Shown here piece by piece: positions 30,574 through 59,262 of a stretch of 64,000 bases of DNA (its first letter is position 1; each line of letters begins with the position of its first letter). The notes beneath the pieces were generated by a model. It was not told the DNA's origin and made no database searches. It saw only the letters and a program-made list of their open reading frames with translations. Source of the stretch: Thiospirochaeta perfilievii (GTDB lineage Bacteria; Spirochaetota; Spirochaetia; DSM-2461); the NCBI RefSeq assembly GCF_008329945.1, contig NZ_CP035807.1, positions 930,001 to 994,000 of the forward strand. The letters are read 5' to 3'. A program made the position numbers and the translations under genes.

Positions 30574-30656
30574 TTAAAATCTCCTAATTTATATTAAACC
30601 TGATATTCACCCTGAAATTCCAATTTAACAATAGGCAAATATGCTTAAATTAACCT

Positions 30657-30674
30657 CTAGGTATATATACCTAG
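30657..30674. promoter_or_regulatory. 18-bp perfect palindrome between regulator and amylase
   Basis: CTAGGTATATATACCTAG is symmetric over all 18 bases, overlaps the stop codon of the LuxR-type regulator and lies 84 bases upstream of the amylase ATG. LuxR-family dimers bind palindromes of this length, so it is a candidate site for the adjacent regulator. No T-run follows, which argues against a terminator. Confidence 0.45.
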
Positions 30675-32023
30675 CCTAGTTTTTTAATGATATTTATTAG
30701 TTCTATTCTATTTCTTGCATTTGATTTATGTAGTACATTGTAAACATGATTATCTACTGTTCTCTTAGAGATATTTAAGTTATCTGCAATCTCTTTATTT
30801 GAAAGTCCATCAATTATTTTTAATATAATATCCATCTCCCTAGCTGTAATACTAAATTTCTGTTCAAATAGAGTTAGATTAAGGGTATTATCTGTAGAAG
30901 AGTCACTTTTAAGTAGGGCGAATAAAAAAATAATAGTTAAAAATACTAAGAGTGTAATAATGTTAAACTTCATATAAAAATTTAATCTGTTAGACAAATT
31001 CTCAGCATAACAGATTCCAATAAAACCACTTATCTCATCTGTAATAATTACAGGGTAAATAAAACTATTTTTACCATTTAAATGGTAGCTGTTATATATA
31101 TTTTCATACTTAGACAACTTATAATTTAAAACATTTATACTATCTAGTCCCATAAGTTGTTTTTCAAAGAGGTCCCCATCAATAGGGGATAATGTTGATT
31201 CCTCACCTATCTTTTTATAGTCAGTAACTAGAAGGTTTCTCTCTAAGTCAAAATAATAAAGGGAGATATACCTAAAACGTTTTGATATATTTCTGATTCC
31301 AAGTTTATCCAACTTATACCATAAAAAATAGTTAAATGATCTATAGATATCCCTATTACTAATAATATCATTTTGTAAAATAGTTATTATGGATTTTGAA
31401 GTAAAAGTATAATTGATATTATTGTAATAGAGGGTAAAAAGTGAGAAAAGGATATTGGATATAAAGAGTAAAATAGATAATAAAAAGATAAACTGTTTAA
31501 GACCACCCTTAAAAACAAAGAGGTAGAATAGATAGGGAGCGATAATTATTAATAAAATATATATTATGTTTAGTATTATTGTTGTTATATTTTCATAACT
31601 CTTAACCATAATAAGGGAGTTAAAACTCTCCATACCATTATAGACCTGTCTGTAGGAGTCCTTATCTTGGCTCCAGATAGGTGTATCCCTACCCTCTATA
31701 TATACAGCAAACTTATACTGGTGCTCTCCTGGGGATAAAACAGTATCTATAGACCATCTATGATTTTGAGGATTTTCATCATCTGGAGTTAATATATAGT
31801 TTTCATTTCCTGGATCCCAGTCGGAAAAAAATCCTGTTAAAATAACCTTTGTTACCCTAGGATATGGATCGATTCCATATATTTTTGAGACATCATCTGG
31901 TAGTGGTAACTCAAAATCGATATTAACCCTGGATATATCTCTTAAATCAAGAACCTTTAGGACAGAGTAGGCCCCAATTAGTAATAATAATATAAGTACA
32001 AAGATTCCATAAAAAATTTTCAT
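30671..32023 (-). CDS. Membrane-anchored LuxR-type regulator with glycogen-binding-like sensor domain
   Basis: 450 residues. TM1 4-22; an outside E-set domain of AMPK/CBM48 type about 55-140 (VILTGFFSDWDPGNENY; SPGEHQYKFAVYIEG); TM2 146-170; TM3 176-200; a second outside region 201-345; TM4 346-368; and a cytoplasmic LuxR helix-turn-helix about 388-450 (LTAREMDII-type start SITAREMDIILKIIDGLSNK; KEIADNLNISKRTVDNHVYN). Four segments put both sensor regions outside and the DNA-binding end inside. Proposed: a one-component membrane regulator of the starch genes that feels glucan in the periplasm. Its own promoter carries the LacI-type operator. No kinase or receiver is involved. Confidence 0.85.
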   Translation of the reverse strand: MKIFYGIFVLILLLLIGAYSVLKVLDLRDISRVNIDFELPLPDDVSKIYGIDPYPRVTKVILTGFFSDWDPGNENYILTPDDENPQNHRWSIDTVLSPGEHQYKFAVYIEGRDTPIWSQDKDSYRQVYNGMESFNSLIMVKSYENITTIILNIIYILLIIIAPYLFYLFVFKGGLKQFIFLLSILLFISNILFSLFTLYYNNINYTFTSKSIITILQNDIISNRDIYRSFNYFLWYKLDKLGIRNISKRFRYISLYYFDLERNLLVTDYKKIGEESTLSPIDGDLFEKQLMGLDSINVLNYKLSKYENIYNSYHLNGKNSFIYPVIITDEISGFIGICYAENLSNRLNFYMKFNIITLLVFLTIIFLFALLKSDSSTDNTLNLTLFEQKFSITAREMDIILKIIDGLSNKEIADNLNISKRTVDNHVYNVLHKSNARNRIELINIIKKLG

Positions 32024-32033
32024 AATTCAGTCT

Positions 32034-32062
32034 ATATTGCAAACGTTTGCATGATATGTCAA
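32034..32062 (-). promoter_or_regulatory. Promoter-operator of the LuxR-type regulator
   Basis: Minus strand: TTGACA (32057-32062), 5 bases, perfect palindrome TGCAAACGTTTGCA (32038-32051), then AT. With a 17-base spacer the -10 would be CAATAT (32034-32039). Only 10 bases separate it from the ATG and no Shine-Dalgarno is visible. Same geometry as three other starch-gene promoters here. Confidence 0.7.
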
Positions 32063-35887: not shown

Positions 35888-35917
35888 CAGAATGCAACCG
35901 ATTGCAAGATTTGTCAA
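35888..35917 (-). promoter_or_regulatory. Promoter-operator of cytoplasmic pullulanase
   Basis: Minus strand: TTGACA (35912-35917), 5 bases, TGCAATCGGTTGCA (35893-35906), followed by a poor -10 (CATTCT). The operator sits across the spacer and the -10, same geometry as the other starch promoters. Confidence 0.65.
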
Positions 35918-35966
35918 ATAAAAAAAATCTAGTGGAAATATATATTTTTTTTTGAAAAATATTTTC

Positions 35967-35995
35967 TTGACAGATCCTGCAAACGCTTGCAAGAT
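35967..35995 (+). promoter_or_regulatory. Promoter-operator of the barrel/lipoprotein operon
   Basis: TTGACA (35967-35972), 5 bases, perfect palindrome TGCAAACGCTTGCA (35978-35991), -10 about CAAGAT (35990-35995). Repressor binding would cover the -10. Confidence 0.7.
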
Positions 35996-36010
35996 AGATA
36001 AAGCAGGAGT

Positions 36011-36058
36011 TGCAATCGCTTGCATTTAGATCCTCCAGTTTAGTGTTAGCGTTTGCAT
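36011..36058. promoter_or_regulatory. Two auxiliary LacI-type sites in the barrel operon leader
   Basis: TGCAATCGCTTGCA (36011-36024) and the half-degenerate TTAGCGTTTGCATA (about 36045-36058) lie downstream of the predicted start. With the sites at 35893 and 35978 this makes four sites in about 165 bp, centre spacings of 85, 33 and 34 bp, the last two near three helical turns and suited to looping or cooperative binding. Confidence 0.55.
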
Positions 36059-36094: not shown

Positions 36095-38062
36095 GTGAAG
36101 AAACGATTTTTGATTACAATGATCATAATGTTTTTTGTTACTCTTAATAATTTTGCAGATGTAGCAGTTAAAGACATAGATGGTACAAATGTTGAAATCA
36201 TAATTACACACAAAGATGATGAATTAACGGAACTCAATGTTATTGGTTCTTTTAATAACTGGATAGAGCCAGGAACACCAATGGAAAAGGGTGAAAATGG
36301 CCTTTGGGAGTTAAGATTTAATGCAAATATCGAAGATGAAATTGTTTATAAATTTTTCTTAGATGGTAACTATATTCCTGATGAAAATGCACCTGATACT
36401 AAGGATGATGGTTTTGCAGGATTTAATGGATTAATAATTGTATCTGATCTATTAACACAACAAGCAGCATCCGAAGCAGTTGCAGCAGGGGAGAAACCAG
36501 CACCAGTTGAATATAAAAGCAAATTAAACTTTGGTATGTATACAATTGTTGGGGCTAAATCCACATTTGTTACCCAAGGATTAGTTGATAAAACAGTTAA
36601 AGGCTTAGAGACTGATACTGCAGGACTTAGTGGAAAATCATACTGGAAGATGGGTGGGACAATAGTACCTGATGTAAATGCATGGTTTGAACTAAAGGTT
36701 TTTGATTCCTACCAACCTTTTTGGGCTCAGGATGCTACTGGTCTAGTATCTCCAGATTTAGAAACAGGTCTAGCATCTTCCTTAGGTGGTTTATTAATTA
36801 ATCCTGTAAACTATATAGGTGGAGACAATCCATCCCTAAACTCTGTTAAGTTTGGAATTGAATCAGAAGTTGTTAATTGGGAAACTGGATACGGTTATGC
36901 AAAACCCCAGGGTAGAACAGCCCTTTTATGGGAAACTCTTGGAGAAAAAGACGGAAATAACGGTTATATGAGGTTTGATCTTGGCTCAAAGTATGAACAA
37001 ATGGGGCCAGCTAAAATTGAATTAACAGTTATGCCAAATGTAATGACTGAGAATTATGCTTTACTCTCCTTTTTAGGTGCTACTATAGGTAAAACAAAAA
37101 TAGACTTTCAATACGATATGAAATCTGCGGCAACTAATGATTTATCAGCAATTTTTGACAAGCTTTACCACCAAGATTTTATTTTTGGTGTTTCTACAAA
37201 AGTTGGGAAATATGATTTAACTGCCCAGTCTATGATAAATTTATTTAGTGAAGAAGATTTTAACATTAAGGATCAGTTAGCTGGTGAAGTTAAAATATCA
37301 GGAGCATTAGGAAGTAAATTAGGAACCCATATAGGATATAGATATACAGGTTCTAGCTCTGAAATGTTATTTGGTAACAACGATAGTATTGGAGATAAAG
37401 GAACACAGAGGATCTCTGCAGAACTATACTCTAAGGGGATAAAAAACCTTAAAGTTGGTTTATACTCATCACTTATTTTAGCTGAGACAAGATCAACAGA
37501 TGTTTTTGATCAGTTATACTTCTACCCATACACAGATATAGACCTTCCTAGTTTAGATGGGACCTTAAAGTTTAATGGAAAATTTAGCTACACCTTAGAA
37601 GACAACTGGATATATAAAGCTAGTAAAGAGAAGTATCTCTTCTCTGAGTTTGGTGCCAACCTTAATATTAATAACCCAACAGATAACATAGATAATATCG
37701 ATTTTAAATACGGTTTAAATAACCATGATGAAGATAAAATATTTAATACACTAATAACTTCTTTAAGAATGCCAAACAACTTAACTGCCGAGATTGGCTT
37801 AGGAGTAAGAACTGTAAAAGAGAGTGCTTCTCAGTCTATTAAAGATGAGAATAATCTTATTGGTTTTTCAGTTGGAGGTTCTTGGAAAGTTCCAGTTAGA
37901 AAAATTAAATCTCCACTTTTATATGGTGCATTTGTTTACAACATGGATCCCTATGATGACGAGAGCAATAATTTAGCTATGGATGGTTATACAACTACAG
38001 ATGGTGTTTCCAAAAGTGATGGTTATGCACAATTCCGTATAATGATGAAGTGGGACTTCTAA
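36095..38062 (+). CDS. Outer-membrane barrel-like protein with N-terminal glycogen-binding domain (copy 1)
   Basis: 655 residues from GTG 36095, chosen for AGGAGGT four bases upstream. Signal peptide 1-21 (ends NNFA). Residues 24-115 form an AMPK/CBM48-type E-set domain (LNVIGSFNNWIEPGTPM; EIVYKFFLDGNYIPDE) with the aromatic sugar-binding pattern. After a Pro/Ala-rich linker (115-140) come about 500 residues of alternating beta strands ending in a terminal Phe (FRIMMKWDF), the usual outer-membrane barrel ending. Proposed: a maltodextrin or starch porin with its own tethered glycan-binding domain in the periplasm. First gene of the operon; copy 2 lies two genes on. Confidence 0.78.
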   Translation: MKKRFLITMIIMFFVTLNNFADVAVKDIDGTNVEIIITHKDDELTELNVIGSFNNWIEPGTPMEKGENGLWELRFNANIEDEIVYKFFLDGNYIPDENAPDTKDDGFAGFNGLIIVSDLLTQQAASEAVAAGEKPAPVEYKSKLNFGMYTIVGAKSTFVTQGLVDKTVKGLETDTAGLSGKSYWKMGGTIVPDVNAWFELKVFDSYQPFWAQDATGLVSPDLETGLASSLGGLLINPVNYIGGDNPSLNSVKFGIESEVVNWETGYGYAKPQGRTALLWETLGEKDGNNGYMRFDLGSKYEQMGPAKIELTVMPNVMTENYALLSFLGATIGKTKIDFQYDMKSAATNDLSAIFDKLYHQDFIFGVSTKVGKYDLTAQSMINLFSEEDFNIKDQLAGEVKISGALGSKLGTHIGYRYTGSSSEMLFGNNDSIGDKGTQRISAELYSKGIKNLKVGLYSSLILAETRSTDVFDQLYFYPYTDIDLPSLDGTLKFNGKFSYTLEDNWIYKASKEKYLFSEFGANLNINNPTDNIDNIDFKYGLNNHDEDKIFNTLITSLRMPNNLTAEIGLGVRTVKESASQSIKDENNLIGFSVGGSWKVPVRKIKSPLLYGAFVYNMDPYDDESNNLAMDGYTTTDGVSKSDGYAQFRIMMKWDF

Positions 38063-38575: not shown

Positions 38576-40462
38576 ATGATGTTAGATAAAATTATTTACG
38601 GCATAACAATACTTTTTTTCCTTACAGGTGTAGCTTTTGCAGATGTAACTGTAAAAGATCTTGGTAATGGTCAAGCAGAGATAACCTTTTTATACCAAGA
38701 TGATGCCGCGGAAGAGATGAACGTTATAGGGTCATTTAATAACTGGATAGAACCAGGCGATGTTATGACTAAAAATGCTGCAGGTTTATGGGAATTTAAG
38801 TTTGTTACATTTTCAGATGATGAAATTGTATACAAATTTTTTGATGGTACATATATTTCAGATGAGAATGCTCCGGATGAAAAAGATGATGGTTTTGCAG
38901 GTATGAACGGTCTTATTATAGTTGCTGATCTACTATTAGAAGAGTCTCCAGCTACTCCTAATGATCCAACAAAGCCTGTAGTTCAAGCTAGGAAAAAAGT
39001 TACTTTTGGTACAGATACTTATATAGAGAGTGATACATCATTTAATACAGATGGAGATTTTAAGGCTGTTGATTCAACTATAAATGCTAAATCTGTATGG
39101 AAATTTGATGGTGACCTTGTAAAAAATATGCCAGGTTATATGGAATTAACTTTCTTTGATGGTAATCCAACAGTATGGAGTGATGGAAGCGTAGAAGTCT
39201 TAGACGGTCTAGAAGCACTTTCATCAGGCTTTATTTTTAATCCAGCTTACTATTTAAGCAGTGATAAAAAACCTTCTGTAGATAACTTCAAATTTGGTTT
39301 TGATACCAAGTATATATCCTACGAAACAGGATATGGTAGTGCAAACTTACCAGGACATGACTCACTTTTATGGGAAACGGTTGATGCAGATGGAATTAGT
39401 GCAGGAGATGGTTATTCAGCATTTAGCTCAAAGATAGATTTAGAGTCTGCTGGATTAACAATAGATACAAAATTTGTTCCAAATAAAAGTATTGGTGATA
39501 AATATGGTATGTATTTTGATCTAGATATGACTTTAGCAGGTTTAAGAGCTGATATTCAGTATGAAATGACATCTAGTTCAACTAGTGATATACAAGCAAT
39601 ATTTGAAAATATTCCCCGACAGGATTTAATTATCGGTCTTGGGTATAAAATGGATAAAGTCTCCATAAATACACAGATATTAAACTCTATGTATGTAGCA
39701 GGAGGAACAACAATGGCTAGGCCTGCAAAAGATAGAGTTGGTGCTGAAGTTAAAGTTTCTTATGCAGATGAAGACCTTATGGGATTAGATATTTCTTATA
39801 AATTAAGAGGAGCTGTTGCAAACTTTATCTACGCTACAACAGAGGATATTTTAGGTGATGAAGATACCCAGGGGGTGAATTTAAGTGGTTTTTACAAACT
39901 TAATAAAGCAGTTACTCCTAAGATGGATTTTTCAGCAACAATGTTAAATGAAGATCCATTAAATAGTAACATTGAGCTTACTGTAAAACCTGGTGCAACT
40001 TTTGATTTATCAGAACAAATAGGTAAAACAACTACAGGAGATATCTATGTAAGTGTTGGGCTTAATAGTAAACCAGCCGACGGAGATAAACCTTCTATAT
40101 CTGTAGGTGCTACAGCAACTATGGAGAATTTAACAATCAACTACGGTTATAACGGAACTAATGCTGACCAAGTTTTTAACTCATTACTATTAAAAGCTGA
40201 ACTTGAAAATGATTTAACAGCAGAATTAGGTATTGGATTAAGAAGTGGAAACGCTGTAATTAACCCATTTGCTCTATGTATAGGTGGTTCTTGGAAGGTT
40301 CCAGCACCAAAAGCTAAAACACCATTAATCTATGCAAACTTTACTTACAACATGGATCCATACGAAACAGGTGAAACTACTGCTACTCTTACTGATTATC
40401 AACTAGAGGATAATTCAGAAACAGAAGCAGCATTTAGACTAGGTATTGTTTGGAGTTATTAA
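38576..40462 (+). CDS. Outer-membrane barrel-like protein with N-terminal glycogen-binding domain (copy 2)
   Basis: 628 residues. Signal peptide 1-22 (ends AFA), glycogen-binding E-set about 24-110 (MNVIGSFNNWIEPGDVM; EIVYKFFDGTYISDENAP), Pro-rich linker, then a long barrel-like region ending FRLGIVWSY with an aromatic last residue. The E-set is closely matched to copy 1 (GSFNNWIEPG identical), while the barrel parts are more diverged, which suggests two pores with different cargo sizes. RBS AGGAGA. Confidence 0.78.
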   Translation: MMLDKIIYGITILFFLTGVAFADVTVKDLGNGQAEITFLYQDDAAEEMNVIGSFNNWIEPGDVMTKNAAGLWEFKFVTFSDDEIVYKFFDGTYISDENAPDEKDDGFAGMNGLIIVADLLLEESPATPNDPTKPVVQARKKVTFGTDTYIESDTSFNTDGDFKAVDSTINAKSVWKFDGDLVKNMPGYMELTFFDGNPTVWSDGSVEVLDGLEALSSGFIFNPAYYLSSDKKPSVDNFKFGFDTKYISYETGYGSANLPGHDSLLWETVDADGISAGDGYSAFSSKIDLESAGLTIDTKFVPNKSIGDKYGMYFDLDMTLAGLRADIQYEMTSSSTSDIQAIFENIPRQDLIIGLGYKMDKVSINTQILNSMYVAGGTTMARPAKDRVGAEVKVSYADEDLMGLDISYKLRGAVANFIYATTEDILGDEDTQGVNLSGFYKLNKAVTPKMDFSATMLNEDPLNSNIELTVKPGATFDLSEQIGKTTTGDIYVSVGLNSKPADGDKPSISVGATATMENLTINYGYNGTNADQVFNSLLLKAELENDLTAELGIGLRSGNAVINPFALCIGGSWKVPAPKAKTPLIYANFTYNMDPYETGETTATLTDYQLEDNSETEAAFRLGIVWSY

Positions 40463-41779: not shown

Positions 41780-43057
41780 ATGAAACGTTTTAAAAAAGTA
41801 ATAATTTTATTATCATTAATAAATATATCAACAATTATATTTGGAAACAATTTTAATAAAATCTTTGACCATACTGTCATCCACGAAATAGAGATACAGA
41901 TATCCCAGAGTGAGTGGGATGGTATTTTATCTGATATGGCTATTAATAAAAGAACAGGAAACTACAGAGAAGCAAAATTTATATATCGTGGACTAGCAGG
42001 TGATGAAGTAATTGATATTGTAGGTTTTAGAACAAGGGGTAATACAACAAGAAGGTATCCTGAAGTTAATGGGAAATACCAAAGAGCCCACTTTAAAATA
42101 AACTTTGATAAAAAATTTCATGGCTTATCTAAATTGAACCTAAAATGGAACTATAATAAGGACCCATCCCAAATTAGGGAGTTATATAGCTACGATATGT
42201 TAAATAAAGCTGGAGTTTTTGCCCCTAAAACAGGTTCAGCAAAACTATATATTAAAATAGGAGATAAAAAAAGAGTAGACTTTGGAATATATACCCTTAT
42301 AGAACCAATTGATAAATCATTTTTAAAAAGAAGATTTGGGTCAGATGCTAATGATGGAAACCTATACAAGTGCCTATGGCAACAAGGGGGATCTGCTACA
42401 CTCTATGGGAATATAACTAAAAAGATAGGTGTAAAGGATTGGACTATAGATTACAGACCTAGTTATGATAGAAAAACCAATGAAGAAGATACCGACTACT
42501 CAGATCTAATTAACTTTGCCAAAAATATAAGTAGATTAAAAGATAGTGAATATAAAGAGTATATGGAAGATCACTTCGAGATAGATAGGTTTTTACGTTA
42601 CCAGGCTATGGCTATGTTGTTAGGTATGCCCGATGACTACTGGGCAATGGGAAATAACTACTATCTCTATTTTAATAATATAACAGGTAAAATTGATTTT
42701 ATCCCCTACGATTACGACCATGGATTAGGTGGGGGTTGGGAAGGTATGAAGGGGTATAAAGCGATACAGGAAGCAGATATTTATACTTGGTTATCTAATA
42801 GATCTGTTAAACCACTATTAAGGTTATTAGACTTCCCTGAATACAAAGAGTTATACGAAGGGTATTTAAAAGAGTTTATACAAGAAGGTGGAATCTTCTC
42901 ATTTACTACTTTTAAAGAAAAGTATGATCAGCAGTATAAACTCTACTTCCCCCTACTAGTTAATGATATGCACGAAGGGGAAGATATGGAACTTAAAAAA
43001 TATATCCCTGAATATTTTGAAAATAAGTTGAAATCTATTACAAGTCAACTTAAATAA
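41780..43057 (+). CDS. Secreted CotH-family kinase-like protein
   Basis: 425 residues. Signal peptide 1-22 (ends TIIFG). CotH fold: early IEIQISQSEWDGIL, GFRTRGNTTRRYP (Gly/Arg loop), KFHGLSKLNLKWN, GIYTLIEPIDKSFLKRRFG and metal motif FIPYDYDHGLGGG (the usual P-[WY]-D-x-D). CotH proteins are atypical kinases that phosphorylate secreted or coat proteins. Starts right after the operon terminator (RBS GAGGGA) with no clear promoter of its own, so expression may come from read-through. The link to starch proteins is only positional. Confidence 0.85.
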   Translation: MKRFKKVIILLSLINISTIIFGNNFNKIFDHTVIHEIEIQISQSEWDGILSDMAINKRTGNYREAKFIYRGLAGDEVIDIVGFRTRGNTTRRYPEVNGKYQRAHFKINFDKKFHGLSKLNLKWNYNKDPSQIRELYSYDMLNKAGVFAPKTGSAKLYIKIGDKKRVDFGIYTLIEPIDKSFLKRRFGSDANDGNLYKCLWQQGGSATLYGNITKKIGVKDWTIDYRPSYDRKTNEEDTDYSDLINFAKNISRLKDSEYKEYMEDHFEIDRFLRYQAMAMLLGMPDDYWAMGNNYYLYFNNITGKIDFIPYDYDHGLGGGWEGMKGYKAIQEADIYTWLSNRSVKPLLRLLDFPEYKELYEGYLKEFIQEGGIFSFTTFKEKYDQQYKLYFPLLVNDMHEGEDMELKKYIPEYFENKLKSITSQLK

Positions 43058-46377: not shown

Positions 46378-48213
46378 TTATCTAAGTTGTAAAATTAATG
46401 TAGTTGTAGTTGGTATAGGGATAACTTCATCCAATTCATACTCAGTACCAGTTATTAAGTCTGTAACATTTGCAGGAATTGTAACTGTTTTAGACTCATT
46501 ATTATAATTATGAATAACTAGTATTTTTGAAGCTTCTGTTTTTACTTCATAAGAGTAAAGATCTTCTGACAATTCAACTTTTGTATAGTTTTCACTGCAA
46601 AAGAATTCTGGGTTTGATTTTCTTATCTCAATTAGTTTTTTATAATGCTCTAAAGTTGAACCCTCTACACCAACCTGCTCTTCATAGGAGATACCATCAT
46701 TAGCCTTTGTATATAACATAGAGTTGTAAAAACCACCCTTACTCATGGTAGTCATGCCCTCACCTTTAGCAGACTGATACCAGTCCATTGGCTCTCTAAT
46801 ATTATCATCAGGTTTTTTTCCTAACATACCAAGCTCTTCTCCGTAGTATAAAAATGGAGTCCCGGGTAGAGTTAATAAAATTGAAGCAGCAAACTTCTCC
46901 TTAGTTTTATTACCACCTAATACAGATGCGACCCTATCCTGATCATGATTAGTAATAAATGTTGCATCAATAAAATTAGGGTTATACTTAGCATAAGCTC
47001 TGTGAATACTTCCAAGGGTTCCTAATAGATCAACTTTTTTACCTCTAGACATCTCTAAAATGTTATTAGCAAAACTAAAGTTAAATGAAGCCTCTAAATC
47101 TTCAAAAAATGACGCCATCTGATTTGTAGATGCCCAGTTTTCACCAACAAGTAGAGCATTTGGGTTAACAGATTTAACATGGGTATTAAACTCCTGCCAC
47201 CAATTATGGGAAACATCCTTATCTGTATCATCAATATGTAGTGCTGCATCTAATCTAAAACCATCTACACCCATATTTAACCAGAAAGAAGCTATATCTT
47301 TAAATTCATCCCTTACTTTCTTATTTCTAAGGTTCATATCCGGCATACCTGACCAAAAGACACCATTATAATAACCAGTATTACTCTTATGCCACTGATT
47401 CCCACCAAAAGGACCGCTCTTTTTAATATTATCAGTAGCATCAGCCCAGTCATAATAGTCCCGGTACTCACTATCTACAGAACTTGCAGCATTCTGAAAC
47501 CATGGGTGCTCTGTGGAACTGTGATTAATAACTAAGTCCATAATAATTTTGATACCATTAGCATGAGCTTCATTTAAAAGATCTTTAAACTCATCTAGGG
47601 TTCCATAATCCATCTCAACATCATAGTAGTCATAAACATCGTACCCGTGGTAACTTGGGGATTGATTTATTGGCATTAACCATAGGGCATCTATACCTAA
47701 CTCTTTTAGATATGGGATCTTATTTTTTAGGCCTATAAAATCACCAATTCCATCACCATTGCCATCACTAAAACTTCTAACAAAAATCTCGTAAAAAACT
47801 GCTTTAGAACCCCATGCAGGAACTTCCCAGTTATTTGTATTTCCAAGTTTTGTAAAGGATATAATATTTGACTTAACAGACTTTTTATCTCTTTTAGCTA
47901 CAATTTGATAGAAGTACTCTCTATTTGCTTCTAGGTTAGATATCTCAAGGCCTCTAGTTCCAACTAAAACATCCTCTTGAACAAGTTTTAAGTTATCTTT
48001 TGACTCTCCAATGTAAAAATCAACTAAGTCTCCTCTTAAAGCCTTAAATAAAAACTTTACAGTTGAATCATCAATATCTATATAACTATCTTGGTCAAAA
48101 ATAGCTAACTCTTCTAATACTACGGGTTTAATCTTTTTAGTGCTTCTGTTTTCTGTAGTAGCACACCCTACAAGTAACAGTAAAGTAACTAAACTTAACA
48201 ATATTTTTTTCAT
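46378..48213 (-). CDS. GH13 alpha-amylase, lipoprotein
   Basis: 611 residues. Lipobox LVGC (MKKILLSLVTLLLLVG then Cys). A short Ig-like domain to about 120, then GH13: FYEIFVRSFSDGNGDGIGDF, LVINHSSTEHPWF, nucleophile Asp in GFRLDAALHI (about 317), acid Glu in VGENW (about 356), and ITNHDQDRV (about 421). QpDLN-like region MPDMNLRN places it with the intermediary amylase/oligosaccharide subfamilies. Acts outside the cytoplasm on maltodextrins. Preceded by the pullulanase gene on the same strand, with a terminator and a possible promoter between them. Confidence 0.92.
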   Translation of the reverse strand: MKKILLSLVTLLLLVGCATTENRSTKKIKPVVLEELAIFDQDSYIDIDDSTVKFLFKALRGDLVDFYIGESKDNLKLVQEDVLVGTRGLEISNLEANREYFYQIVAKRDKKSVKSNIISFTKLGNTNNWEVPAWGSKAVFYEIFVRSFSDGNGDGIGDFIGLKNKIPYLKELGIDALWLMPINQSPSYHGYDVYDYYDVEMDYGTLDEFKDLLNEAHANGIKIIMDLVINHSSTEHPWFQNAASSVDSEYRDYYDWADATDNIKKSGPFGGNQWHKSNTGYYNGVFWSGMPDMNLRNKKVRDEFKDIASFWLNMGVDGFRLDAALHIDDTDKDVSHNWWQEFNTHVKSVNPNALLVGENWASTNQMASFFEDLEASFNFSFANNILEMSRGKKVDLLGTLGSIHRAYAKYNPNFIDATFITNHDQDRVASVLGGNKTKEKFAASILLTLPGTPFLYYGEELGMLGKKPDDNIREPMDWYQSAKGEGMTTMSKGGFYNSMLYTKANDGISYEEQVGVEGSTLEHYKKLIEIRKSNPEFFCSENYTKVELSEDLYSYEVKTEASKILVIHNYNNESKTVTIPANVTDLITGTEYELDEVIPIPTTTTLILQLR

Positions 48214-48236
48214 ACTAAATCCTTATAAATAATAAA

Positions 48237-48270
48237 ACTCCCCACAGTACAATTATATACAATGGGGAGT
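48237..48270 (-). terminator. Terminator of the lipoprotein pullulanase, loop contains TATAAT
   Basis: Minus strand: ACTCCCCA ... TGGGGAGT, an 8-bp stem with an 18-base loop, followed by TTTTATT. The loop holds TATATAAT, which could be the -10 for the amylase gene about 30 bases on. Confidence 0.6.
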
Positions 48271-48283
48271 AAAAGAAAACAAA

Positions 48284-50925
48284 CTACTCTTTTATTATTA
48301 ATGCTGTTAACGCATCAATTTTAATTTTATCACTACTTAGTGTAAATCCAGAAATCTCTTTAACTGGCTCTACACCACTCTCATCAGAATCTACTAAAAC
48401 GATTCCATTGGTTAAATCAACTTCTAAGCCAAGTTCTCTAGATACATCATCTGCATTAATAAATACATAGTATGAATCACCATCTGTGGATATTGCTTTA
48501 TATACAATTATATTATCCTGGGGTTTTATACCCGCTGCTTTAACAAGCGATACATTCTTTTTAACTAAATCCGCATCTCCTAATCTAAAAGCGTCGGTAG
48601 ATCTTCTAAGTTTAATTAAACCAGTTGTGTAGTCTATAGTATTTTTCGGTAGACCTTCTGACTCAATTTTTTCCCAATCTATCATATTAATAGCATCTGA
48701 GGAGTCATAGGAGTCATGTACAAACCACGGGTAATCAAAACCTTTAACTTCAGTTCCTTTAACGCTTGGCTTACCAGCTGCTCTCCACTGTTTAGTTCTA
48801 CCGTACTCCTGACCTGCGTGTAAAAATGCAGTTCCCTGACTTGTTAAAATCATAGTATTAGATAGTCTTATTCTTTTCTGAATCTCTTCCTCATGGTGGT
48901 CTGGATCTTTATTTATTGATTGAGCAATAACATCATGTAACGGTAGGTTGTCATGGGCAGCAACATACTGAACCACATCACCTGGATCGTCTAATGTCAT
49001 ATTACTTGGACGTCCAGCAACATTGTTGAAAATAAGGTTAATATCCCTTTTCCCACCAGTCATAAACCGTGGTTGCCCCTCTGAACCAAAACCAGACTTT
49101 AACTCATTTCTCATCTCATCTGAGAAACTTCCAGCAGCATCTGTTTGGGCCATCCAACTCTGGTCAGCAGGAGTTCTAGAGTCCCCATCATCTCCGGCGT
49201 AGGTTCTCCAACCCTCACCAATCATAATAATATTAGGATTAACTTCCCTACTCTTATCAAAAGCCATTTGTACAGTCTCAGCATCTAGATCACCCATTAA
49301 GTCATATCTAAAACCGTCTACCTTATACTCATTAACCCAGTGTAAAACAGAATCAACAACTAACTTTCTAGACATAAAGTGGGTTGTACCTACTCTACCA
49401 CCACCATAACTTGACTTAGGTTTCCCATCAACATCCATAAAATGATAATAACCAGGAATAATATCTTCTAAAATAGAGATTTTAGCAGTGTGGTTATATA
49501 CAGCATCTAAAATAACACCCATTCCACTTTTATGTATTGCATCAATTAACTCTTTTAGTTCCTTAACCCTAAGTTCAGGATCCCTAGGGTTCTCAGAATA
49601 CATTCCCTCTGGAGAGAAGTAGTTATGTGGATCGTATCCCCAGTTATATGTATTTGGACCAGCTGAATAATCAAGTTCTCTTGTCCCATTATCTAACTCA
49701 TTACCAAAGTAATAGTTCATAACAGGTAATAATTGAACATGGGTTACACCTAGAGACTTAATATAGTCTAACTTCTCAATAAACGCTTTATAAGTACCAA
49801 ATTGGGATTTTGTTTCTAAACTTGGATCAGATGTAAAATCCCTAACATGGATCTCCCATATTATAGCGTCTTCTCTTTTTGTATACCCTTCAATGTTAGC
49901 AAAATCTAGCTTTGGTCCAATTGATTTAAGATCTACAACAGCAGCCCTACCAACTTTTTCCTTACTCTCATTAAATGCAGCCATAGATTTAGCATATGGG
50001 TCTAAAACCCTTTTTGTTCTACCAGCATTAGTTACATCATAGGTATAAAAATAACCCTTTAAATCTTCTTTAATAACAATGGACCAAACACCCTTATCTC
50101 CTAGGGTTAAATCAGCCTCTTTATAGATAGTATCATCTGTTCCATCTTTATAAATTGTTAATTTTATATTAGATGCTAAAGGAGACCAAAGTTTAAACTC
50201 TGTACCACTTTTACTATATATTGCACCTAGTTCTCCATCGTAGGAAAATGTACTATCAATGCTCTCCCAAGAGAAATTAACCTTTTTTGATAATGCTCCA
50301 CTTTTAACAACATATACACTTAAGGGATTTAATGGTTCTTTAGCTGTAATATATCCTAAACGTCCGTTTTTTATCTCCCAAGACTCAAGCTCCACAGGAA
50401 CTCCATCTAGTTCAAGGGTTAACTCTTTATCTGTTTTCATTCTAAATTTTAACTTTATCTGTTTATCAGTAACAGCTACTGCAGATAATATTTTATTATT
50501 TAGGCTGGAGTCAGCGTCCTTGAAAGTTAAATACTCAGTATCATCCCCAGATATTGCCCAATACTCATTATTAGAGTCTAGTTTTGGAAATGTTCTATCC
50601 CCATCGGGATCTTTATTATCACCGTTATGAATAATAAAGTTAAGTTCACCTTCTCCACTATATGGAATATCCCAATAAACACCAAAGGAGCTCTCTCCTG
50701 TAACAGGTAAAGCTGCTTCCCATTTAACTTCAGGTCCATTGTAACCTGCACCCCAAACATGAATACCCCAACCGGAGTAGTTTTTATCAAATCTGTGATA
50801 GTTTAACCTAACCATACCCTTAGGAACAGCAGGAGTATCACCCTTATCACTACCTGAAGAGACGCTTGCACAGGATGCAAGCGTTACCACAAGAAGAACT
50901 AAAAAATATTTAGTATCTTTCTCAT
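48284..50925 (-). CDS. Type I pullulanase, lipoprotein (PUD/CBM41, CBM48, GH13), with N-terminal frameshift
   Basis: About 880 residues. The frame open as sequenced gives MMFSNRRLNEKDTKYFLVLL, but ATG 50925 with TAGGAGA upstream gives MRKILNIF; one added base in six A (plus strand 50901-50906) joins it to LVLLVVTLASCASVSS, a textbook lipoprotein signal. Domains: pullulanase-associated PUD/CBM41 about 40-140 (GWGIHVWGAGYNGPEVKW), a linker, CBM48 about 225-320 (GTEFKLWSPLASNIKL), and GH13_14 with YNWGYDPHNYFSPEG (about 425), FRYDLMGD (about 540), IGEGW (about 570) and AHDNLPLHD (about 655). Debranches glucan outside. Eleven bases after the PUD lipoprotein gene, so in the same operon. Confidence 0.88.
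50862..50884. repeat. Inverted repeat of operator half-sites inside the pullulanase signal-peptide codons
   Basis: ACGCTTGCA-CAGGA-TGCAAGCGT, perfect 9-bp arms. The arms are the half-site of the LacI-type operators in the window but turned outward. It codes for the TLASCASV lipobox. In RNA it forms a very stable stem near the translation start; in DNA it could be a weak extra repressor site. Confidence 0.5.
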
Positions 50926-50936
50926 TTAATCTCCTA

Positions 50937-51365
50937 TTACTGAACATCATCTAGAGATGTATATAGTACTGAATCTCCTGAAAGTGCCCAAAATTCGTTA
51001 ATTGTTTCTACGCCTTCAAATGTTCTATCACCATCTGGGTCTTTTTCATCACCATTATGAATAATGAAATTTAGCTCATCTTCACCAAAATAAGGGATAT
51101 CCCAGTAAGCTCCAAAATCATCAAAACCTGTTGGCTCTACAGCTGCGGCCCAATCTACAGTATCTCCTGCATATCCTGCACCCCAAATATGTAAACCCCA
51201 ACCTTCATAATTGTCATCCATTCTCTGGTAGTGTAATCTTACGTTCCCATCTTCAATAGCACCTGCTTCCACCATATCTTTAGTATTAGCTTCTGGTGCT
51301 GTTGTTAAACAACCAGCTGTTAATAATAACATTGCAATTACAAATAAATTAATAATTTTCTTCAT
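50937..51365 (-). CDS. Stand-alone PUD/CBM41 starch-binding lipoprotein
   Basis: 142 residues. Lipobox TAGC (Cys 19). The mature protein is little more than one pullulanase-associated domain: VRLHYQRMDDNYEGWGLHIW, YWDIPYFGEDELNFIIHNGD, KDPDGDRTFEG. It closely matches the N-terminal domain of the pullulanase encoded next (DELNFIIHNGD versus GELNFIIHNGD), so it arose by duplication of that domain. Proposed: a surface glucan-holding protein for the enzyme. First gene after a promoter with a LacI-type operator. Confidence 0.85.
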   Translation of the reverse strand: MKKIINLFVIAMLLLTAGCLTTAPEANTKDMVEAGAIEDGNVRLHYQRMDDNYEGWGLHIWGAGYAGDTVDWAAAVEPTGFDDFGAYWDIPYFGEDELNFIIHNGDEKDPDGDRTFEGVETINEFWALSGDSVLYTSLDDVQ

Positions 51366-51385: not shown

Positions 51386-51414
51386 ATAATGCAAGCGTTT
51401 GCAATACCTGTCAA
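51386..51414 (-). promoter_or_regulatory. Promoter-operator of the PUD lipoprotein-pullulanase operon
   Basis: Minus strand: TTGACA (51409-51414), 5 bases, perfect palindrome TGCAAACGCTTGCA (51390-51403), -10 CATTAT (51386-51391). Operator covers the spacer and -10. Confidence 0.72.
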
Positions 51415-57375: not shown

Positions 57376-59262
57376 ATGGAATTGAAGAAATCACTTAAAA
57401 CATACGACGTATTTAGTTTAGCAGCAGGAGCGATGATAAGTTCAGGACTGTTTATTTTACCCTCTGTAGCATATAAAGAGGCGGGAAGTTGGGCAATATT
57501 ATCCTACTTTTTAGCAGGAATTTTAATGATACCAGCCCTAATATCCCAATTAGAGTTGGCAACAGCACTACCAAAGGCTGGAGGAACCTACTTTTATATA
57601 GAGAGAATATTAGGTAGCTCTTCTGGTATGGCAGCAGGCTTTGCAAACTGGTTTTCTATCGCTTTAAAAAGTGCTTTAGCACTAGTTGGTATTGGATTTT
57701 TTGCTAATCTAATATTTCCTAACCTAACCCCATTTCAGTTAAAACTTATTTCTGCAGGGGCATGTGTACTCTTCTCACTAATTAATATTTTCTCTGCAGA
57801 ATCAGCAGGGCATAGTCAGGGTATCCTTGTAGTTGTTCTACTGATAATATTAACACAATTTGTATTAGTAGGTTATCGAGAGGCGGATTTAAACCTAATA
57901 GTTCAGGGAGCACAAGTCTTCGACTGGGGTAGCATAATATCAGTTACAGGGATGGTTTTTATATCCTATGGAGGTTTAACTAAAGTTGCCAGTGTTGCTG
58001 AAGAGGTAAAAGATCCCGGAAAGTCCCTTGTTAGGGGGAGTTTTATAGCCTTCTTAATTGTTCAATCCCTCTATGTTCTAATTGTTACAATAATAAGTGG
58101 AGTATTATCTGGAGAGGAGTTTTCATTATCCCTAGCCCCTCTATCCGATGCGGCACAAAAAATATTTACGAACCCAATTATTAAATGGACCGAGGTCATA
58201 CTTCTCTCTCTAGCTGCAATAATTGCATTTATTACAACAGCAAATGCGGGAATAATGGCAGCTTCTAGAGTACCTTTAGCTATGAGTCGGGATAAAATGC
58301 TACCAAAGGTTATGGGTCGAGTATCTAAACGAGGAACCCCTGTAAACTCTATACTATTTACATCCATATTTATTCTTATACTTATCTTTGCCCTAGACCT
58401 AAAGGATCTAGCTAAAATTGCATCTCTATTTATGTTATTACTATTTATTTTGGTCAACATCTCTGTAATTGTAATTAGAAAAACAAATATGAGTAATTAT
58501 AGACCTACTTTTAAATCCCCGTTTTTTCCCCTGTTACAAATTATAGGAGTTATTTTCTACACAGTTTTAATTCTAAATATGGGAATTAAACCAATAATTA
58601 CAGCAATTATATTTCTTTTTGTATCCGTTTTATGGTACTACATCTTTGTTAATAAACATGTAAATAGAACTTCAGCTTTAGTCTACATGATAGAGAGAGT
58701 TGCAAAAAAAGAGATTTTAACTTCTATGGAGGATTTAGAAGAGGAACTTTTAGGGATTCTTTTAGAGAGGGATGAGGTTAAAGAGGATAGATTTAGTAAT
58801 ATAATAAGACAATCTATTGTTTTAGACTTTAATAAAGAGTTAAACAGAGATGAACTATTTAGTGAAATATCCAAGGAAGTATCTAAAAGATGGAGTATAG
58901 ATGCTGATAAATTTATGAAAAAACTTAATATTAGGGAGAATGATTCTGAAACACTAGTATATCCAGGTGTTGCAGTTCCCCATGCTATTCCCCACGTTAT
59001 TGTAGAGGGAGAAAACATTTTTGATATACTTCTAGTCAGGGATAAAAATGGAATAATTTGGAACGATGAAGGAACTATAGTACATACTGTTTTTTGCCTT
59101 ATAGGAAGTAAGGATGAGAGGGATTTCCATTTAAAGGCTCTTATGTCTATAGCTCAAATATTACAAAGTCCAGGTTTTATAGAGGATTGGGAAAATGCCG
59201 AAACCCCAGAAGAGCTAAGAACAGTTATGTTATTAGCTAAACGGAGGTTTTTAGAAGTTTAA
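57376..59262 (+). CDS. APC-family amino-acid permease fused to a PTS EIIA domain
   Basis: 628 residues. About 12 membrane segments to residue 430, opening with [20 protein letters not shown] (the APC GxxIGxGIF-like loop) and [16 protein letters not shown]; then a linker, and an EIIA nitrogen/fructose-type domain about 480-625 with its phospho-His at H536 in [14 protein letters not shown] and [20 protein letters not shown]. The substrate is probably an amino acid or amine. The fusion suggests direct control of uptake by PTS phosphorylation. 4-base overlap with the convergent cheB. Confidence 0.88.

Follow-up and report, generated by a model that had tools for sequence, protein, structure and literature searches.

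Bacterial starch sensing, where it has been studied well, depends on small products such as the maltose recognized through SusR. The locus described here raises the question of whether a bacterial regulator might read the polymer directly, by means of an extracytoplasmic glycogen-binding module with the same fold as the glycogen sensor of AMPK. The window, i.e., the whole stretch of 64,000 nucleotides of Thiospirochaeta perfilievii that was analysed (coordinates below are positions within it), encodes a protein that a sequence-only reading had described as an anchored LuxR regulator carrying an outside glucan-binding-type domain and linked to an amylase. Support for this reading comes from the profile match of that domain and the contact residues it keeps, from an amylase that occurs strictly together with the regulator, and from a conserved intergenic block, while glucan binding and regulation stay predictions. 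We consider it rather likely that the regulator is a membrane-anchored one-component sensor of alpha-glucan that would activate the adjacent amylase lipoprotein gene.

Architecture of the regulator

The regulator gene (30671..32023, minus strand, as are all its features) was found where the sequence-only reading had placed it, running from an ATG start to a TAG stop and encoding 450 amino acids. Hydropathy analysis and Pfam also bore out the four TM segments and the C-terminal LuxR helix-turn-helix described there. From the N-terminus the order is TM1 (residues 7-25; 31949..32005), an E-set domain of AMPK1_CBM type detected with Pfam and hhalign (about residues 55-142; 31598..31861), TM2 and TM3 (residues 153-171 and 178-196; together 31436..31567), a second extracytoplasmic domain (about residues 203-350; 30974..31417), TM4 (residues 353-371; 30911..30967) and a LuxR-type (GerE) helix-turn-helix (residues 392-444; 30692..30850). 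GerE (PF00196) was matched at E 1.5e-16, with 60.2 bits against a curated cut-off of 23.5. Both motifs quoted for the first outside domain occur in the translation, and the second outside region is present between TM3 and TM4 (residues 197-352).

The short, positively charged, cytoplasmic loop between TM2 and TM3 has six residues, of which two to three are K/R and at most one is acidic in three orthologues, and basic K/R residues are also found at the N-terminus of these proteins. This pattern supports a topology with the N-terminus inside, the E-set and the second domain outside, and the LuxR domain inside. Pfam gave no match to the receiver domain (Response_reg) in the regulator, and none to a Trans_reg_C-type winged helix. 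A model of the whole protein was of poor quality (pLDDT 50) and was set aside.

Other anchored LuxR proteins were seen in spirochaetes (L015, L036), with a large N-terminal ectodomain that is BatD-like by eye, one TM segment and a C-terminal LuxR domain.

The E-set domain and its putative glucan-contact residues

The AMPK1_CBM match in the regulator (residues 58-129, E 2e-4) scored 21.9 bits and thus under the Pfam cut-off of 26.8 bits, so that Pfam by itself makes no call. All three aligned orthologues were matched as well, with a best E of 1.2e-5. A profile-profile comparison of the three orthologue E-sets with six AMPK1_CBM-type domains by hhalign gave 99.3% and E 2.5e-20, and the six domains themselves matched structures of the AMPK beta CBM (E 2.6e-16); phmmer with a single E-set against the PDB returned weak matches only. 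Given the orthologue matches and the profile-profile value, the similarity is not a chance match, and by these comparisons the E-set appears to be a true homologue of AMPK1_CBM-type domains.

W69, K104, W117 and N135 of the regulator, which are invariant among its orthologues, align with W100, K126, W133 and N150 of AMPK, the last of which we take to be a glycogen-contact position. Glycogen binding by AMPK is lost with W100G or K126Q and reduced with W133L (PMC6274970). Across the eight heads that were compared, including those on other outputs described below, W69 was kept in all eight and K104, W117 and N135 in seven each, with all four together in seven of the eight. The most divergent head (G401) has W117 and N135 replaced and K104 changed to R. 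This retention across outputs is the best evidence that the E-set would have a binding role.

AMPK1_CBM-type domains were also noticed in other settings. ParA-type ATPases of Desulfobacteraceae and Phycisphaerales (L054, L055) carry one fused at the C-terminus, and a protein of Gemmatimonadota (L051:5590-6255) combines a cytoplasmic N-terminus, one TM segment and an outside AMPK1_CBM-type domain in an anti-sigma-like layout.

The second outside domain

For residues about 203-350 there was no Pfam match and no significant sequence match in the PDB, where the KinD sensor, a domain of the class that the structural comparison also brought up, appeared at E 0.28 amid chance matches. An AlphaFold model built from four sequences was of middling confidence (pLDDT 61, pTM 0.63) and consists of a long helix, a helix, two strands, helices and a long two-stranded hairpin. 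Foldseek found no significant match to it, none being below 0.008. Extracytoplasmic PAS/Cache sensor domains filled almost all the top rows from VIA-align: LuxQ (Z 8.9, superposed with an rmsd of 3.5 over 123 residues), PctD (8.6), WalK/YycG (8.5), CusS (8.3), KinD (7.7) and CpxA (7.5). Since Z values of 7-8 often arise by chance, the assignment leans on the consistency of the list, the topology and the presence of HAMP behind TM4 in relatives. The model points to a likely PAS/Cache-like sensor domain. Left undiscussed in the sequence-only reading, this domain may transmit or even receive the signal, because it lies directly before TM4 and the helix-turn-helix.

It is conceivable, though in our judgement unlikely, that the ligand is a small molecule, for instance maltose or some other sugar or a metabolite of a different kind, and is received by the PAS/Cache-like domain. 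The amylase would still be controlled, and the E-set would merely position the protein on polysaccharide or glucan proteins, or aid dimerisation. The PAS/Cache-like domain stands immediately ahead of TM4 and the output, an order also seen in WalK, CusS, KinD and LuxQ, and HAMP follows it in the kinase and phosphatase relatives; a functional precedent exists in SusR of Bacteroides, which responds to periplasmic maltose (PMC3878776). However, no other part of the head is conserved as poorly as the Cache-like domain, in which only a P and a G are invariant in seven sequences; the contact residues of the E-set, by contrast, persist from one output to another.

Distribution and the amylase partner

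Orthologues of the regulator were found in four of 26 family genomes, namely the window's genome, G001 of the same genus (full-length, 43%), G009 (43%) and G004, where the orthologue is split over two contigs. The other 22 family genomes contained no full-length orthologue, and neither did the rest of the 395 class genomes searched. Scanning genome contigs with the single regulator protein yielded no relative, and with the alignment it yielded two orthologues, both from spirochaetes, together with five E-set proteins that are unrelated. Most matches of whole-protein searches were rejected as orthologues, being 6-7-TM LuxR proteins, kinases and response regulators aligned over TM4 and the LuxR domain only.

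The presumed target encodes a GH13 alpha-amylase lipoprotein (P0002; 27790..30573, minus strand) with CHB_HEX_C_1 and Glucodextran_C domains by Pfam; the lipobox, read by eye, is LLSC, MFGC or LSSC. As had been claimed, the regulator lies directly upstream of the amylase gene, on the same strand and with a gap of 97 bp. Within the 26 family genomes, orthologues of the amylase (60%) are confined to the same four that have the regulator, and in each of them the amylase gene follows the regulator gene directly and in the same orientation. The window's genus has kept a wider neighbourhood too (CvfB gene, kinase-like gene and IMPase gene); in the second genus (G009, G004) the regulator-amylase pair alone is kept, with flanking genes that differ between the genera.

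Candidate operator between regulator and amylase

A block of 45 bp starting from the regulator stop codon aligns without gaps among the window, G009 and G001, the three independent sequences by which it is defined. The pairwise identities of 34/45, 27/45 and 26/45 were reached in 0-1 of 300 dinucleotide shuffles. Box 1 is a perfect 18-bp palindrome, CTAGGTATATATACCTAG, at the stop codon (30657..30674, minus strand), and box 2, AGCATATTTGCCTA (30632..30645, minus strand), is located 27 bp away, centre to centre. In the aligned gaps box 2 runs straight into TTG, which in the window begins the TTGTTA hexamer of a possible amylase promoter, TTGTTA-17 bp-GAATAT (30603..30631, minus strand). The hexamers are weak in the window, matching at 4/6 and 3/6 positions; those of G009 are TTGCCG-17-GATAAT, and the -10 fit is weak elsewhere. 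If the promoter is read correctly, the boxes would centre at about -42.5 and -69.5. LuxR-type activators work from positions of this kind.

A sequence model of the block was searched in six genomes, including two relatives without the regulator-amylase pair. Each of the four regulator genomes gave one strong copy, and nothing comparable turned up elsewhere in them or in the two relatives. With one copy per genome, the regulator appears to be dedicated to a single promoter, and the conserved block is a candidate operator of a dedicated amylase switch. A lone conserved candidate operator beside one amylase gene also offers a clean reporter test.

There is a smaller chance that the block is an RNA element or processing hairpin in a transcript spanning regulator and amylase, or a site for some other factor. 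The boxes of G009 can pair as a strong hairpin (z -4.4), and the palindrome was also flagged as terminator-like. The fold is unfavoured in the window (z -0.3) and in G001 (z -0.5), though the DNA boxes are conserved there, and promoter-like hexamers with 17-bp spacing come after the block. A conserved RNA fold in the gap was rejected on these values.

LacI-type operators

Upstream of the regulator gene, a pattern search located the LacI-type operator GCAAACGTTTGC (32039..32050, minus strand), 6 bp after a TTGACA that lies 36-39 bp from the start codon, so that the regulator mRNA would be nearly leaderless if TTGACA belongs to the promoter. Before the regulator, the operator GCAANCGNTTGC stands at this distance from TTGACA in two genomes, that of the window and G001; in the second genus, G009 and G004 both lack it at that place. 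The arrangement TTGACA-6-GCAANCGNTTGC also precedes the CBM48-barrel gene, the pullulanase gene and the group of PUD-protein, pullulanase and GH13 genes. In the window, pattern searches placed three LacI-type operators (35894, 35979 and 36012) in the pullulanase/CBM48-barrel intergenic region (35894..36023) and one (51391..51402, minus strand) before the PUD-protein/pullulanase/GH13 group (46378-51365). GH13 genes have further copies of GCAANCGNTTGC, as does the interval separating a LacI gene from a beta-phosphoglucomutase-like gene, the genome-wide counts deriving from pattern searches alone. Because the regulator, pullulanase and CBM48-barrel genes have this operator in common, the sensor seems to belong to an alpha-glucan regulon under a LacI-type repressor, in which the amylase would have an extra layer of control.

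Several neighbouring features were recorded in addition. A candidate repressor gene (L098:2350-3360) is divergent from the beta-phosphoglucomutase-like gene, with the operator between them. Two large proteins (36095-38062 and 38576-40462, both plus strand) have an N-terminal CBM48-like domain (8.5e-5, above the cut-off, and 0.027, weak, respectively) followed by an apparent outer-membrane barrel, and are possible glucan porins or anchors; a CotH kinase-family protein (41780-43057, plus strand) adjoins their genes. An amino-acid permease encoded at 57376-59262 (plus strand) has a fused C-terminal PTS EIIA type 2 domain.

The sensory head on other outputs

A search with the head only, covering 393 genomes across the phylum Spirochaetota, recovered a fifth LuxR-type protein (G461, 499 aa) and several proteins with other outputs. 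A protein of G501 (1165 aa) joins the head to HAMP-HisKA-HATPase-REC-SpoIIE. HAMP-GAF-SpoIIE follows the head in a group of about 954-991 aa, assigned by Pfam in G473 and by similar sequence in G477, G454 and a second G501 protein. In G401 the head is attached to HAMP-SpoIIE, and in G413 a frame of 792 residues includes the head at full length. All aligned heads share TM1, the E-set, TM2, TM3, the second domain and TM4, and in the kinase and phosphatase relatives HAMP comes after TM4. In G473, G477 and G454 the next gene after the SpoIIE-type receptor encodes a 779-aa TPR protein with several AMPK1_CBM/CBM48 repeats (L108:8280-10619, L109:8504-10843 and L110:1137-3476; E 2.3e-24 in G473), and a protein with CBM21 starch-binding domains (E 1.7e-30) is encoded near the kinase form of G501.

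Since it recurs in other spirochaetes on quite different outputs, the head looks like a carbohydrate-sensing module with interchangeable outputs, apparently unnoted before in the literature examined. In that literature we found no description of an AMPK/CBM48-LuxR fusion, which does not prove that none exists. We see about even prospects that Spirochaetota possess modular polysaccharide receptors, in which one 4-TM head on LuxR, on a SpoIIE-type phosphatase or on a histidine kinase-receiver-phosphatase would use its AMPK-like carbohydrate module to sense the polymer itself outside the membrane. Four kinds of output carry the head, and a single ectodomain assay would be informative for the whole receptor family.

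Proposed mechanism

As an alpha-glucan sensor, the regulator could have glycogen, starch, pullulan or larger fragments as ligands, met at the outer face of the cytoplasmic membrane. Relief of the LacI-type repressor, whose operator is present, would allow the sensor to be made along with the pullulanases and the CBM48-barrel protein. The E-set, with its conserved contact residues, would then bind the polysaccharide, and binding would alter the PAS/Cache-like domain or its dimer, sending the signal through TM4, as the domain order and the HAMP after TM4 in relatives suggest. Paired LuxR domains on the two boxes would finally recruit RNA polymerase and activate the amylase gene. The sensory head may be an evolutionary unit in its own right, coupled in other spirochaetes to a phosphatase or kinase output.

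That the E-set has lost carbohydrate binding for a structural or protein-protein role, with an unrelated signal (envelope state, redox) and an amylase pairing inherited incidentally, is quite improbable, for although its Pfam score is sub-threshold and E-set domains are structurally versatile, the invariant contact residues, the strict co-occurrence, the intergenic block and the shared LacI-type operator all point to alpha-glucan use.

Comparison with known systems

The ToxR/CadC-like logic suggested by the sequence-only reading holds as regards the anchored one-component layout, with the sensor outside and the DNA-binding domain inside, but not as regards the features of that family. CadC and ToxR proteins have an N-terminal winged helix of OmpR type and a single TM segment, whereas the helix-turn-helix of the regulator is LuxR-type, C-terminal and placed behind four TM segments.

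The 10-12-TM LuxR regulators DadR, CadR and HcdR of Eggerthella lenta are similar in being membrane-spanning LuxR-type activators with a nearby catabolic enzyme gene and a substrate response, and an anchored LuxR regulator of Eggerthella was shown to activate a nearby catabolic gene on its substrate (PMC9734109). The DadR type is a bundle of 10-12 TM helices, in contrast to the four TM segments and two folded outside domains of the regulator, and the LuxR domain alone is common to both. SusR of Bacteroides thetaiotaomicron senses a periplasmic starch product and activates amylase genes (PMC3878776, PMC11633381), and resembles the regulator in its one-component logic and in putative tandem DNA boxes. 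Its boxes are 67-77 bp apart, in contrast to the 27 bp found here, and its DNA-binding domain has been described as unlike other known regulators (PMC3878776), while the output of the regulator is an ordinary GerE domain. The regulator thus resembles SusR and the 10-12-TM LuxRs in logic and, differing from the former in output domain and from the latter in TM number, belongs to neither.

Spirochaete 6-7-TM LuxR proteins (e.g., L012, L013 and L014) also have a TM segment followed by the LuxR domain and are the nearest outside matches over TM4 and the helix-turn-helix (37-43% identity), although they are without an E-set or a Cache-like ectodomain. Given this proximity, the regulator probably arose when an existing sensory head was joined to a local TM-LuxR output. 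The head shares E-set homology and the W/K/W/N glucan-contact residues with the AMPK beta CBM/CBM48 domains. In AMPK the CBM makes a cytosolic kinase signalling protein a glycogen sensor, whereas here the domain belongs to a bacterial receptor and lies outside the membrane. The LuxR placement, which the sequence-only reading had considered unusual, has precedents among membrane-spanning LuxR regulators; what is unusual is the head, which is also found on other outputs. Anchored one-component regulation through LuxR domains is already known, and it is the type of sensory head that is new as far as the examined literature goes.
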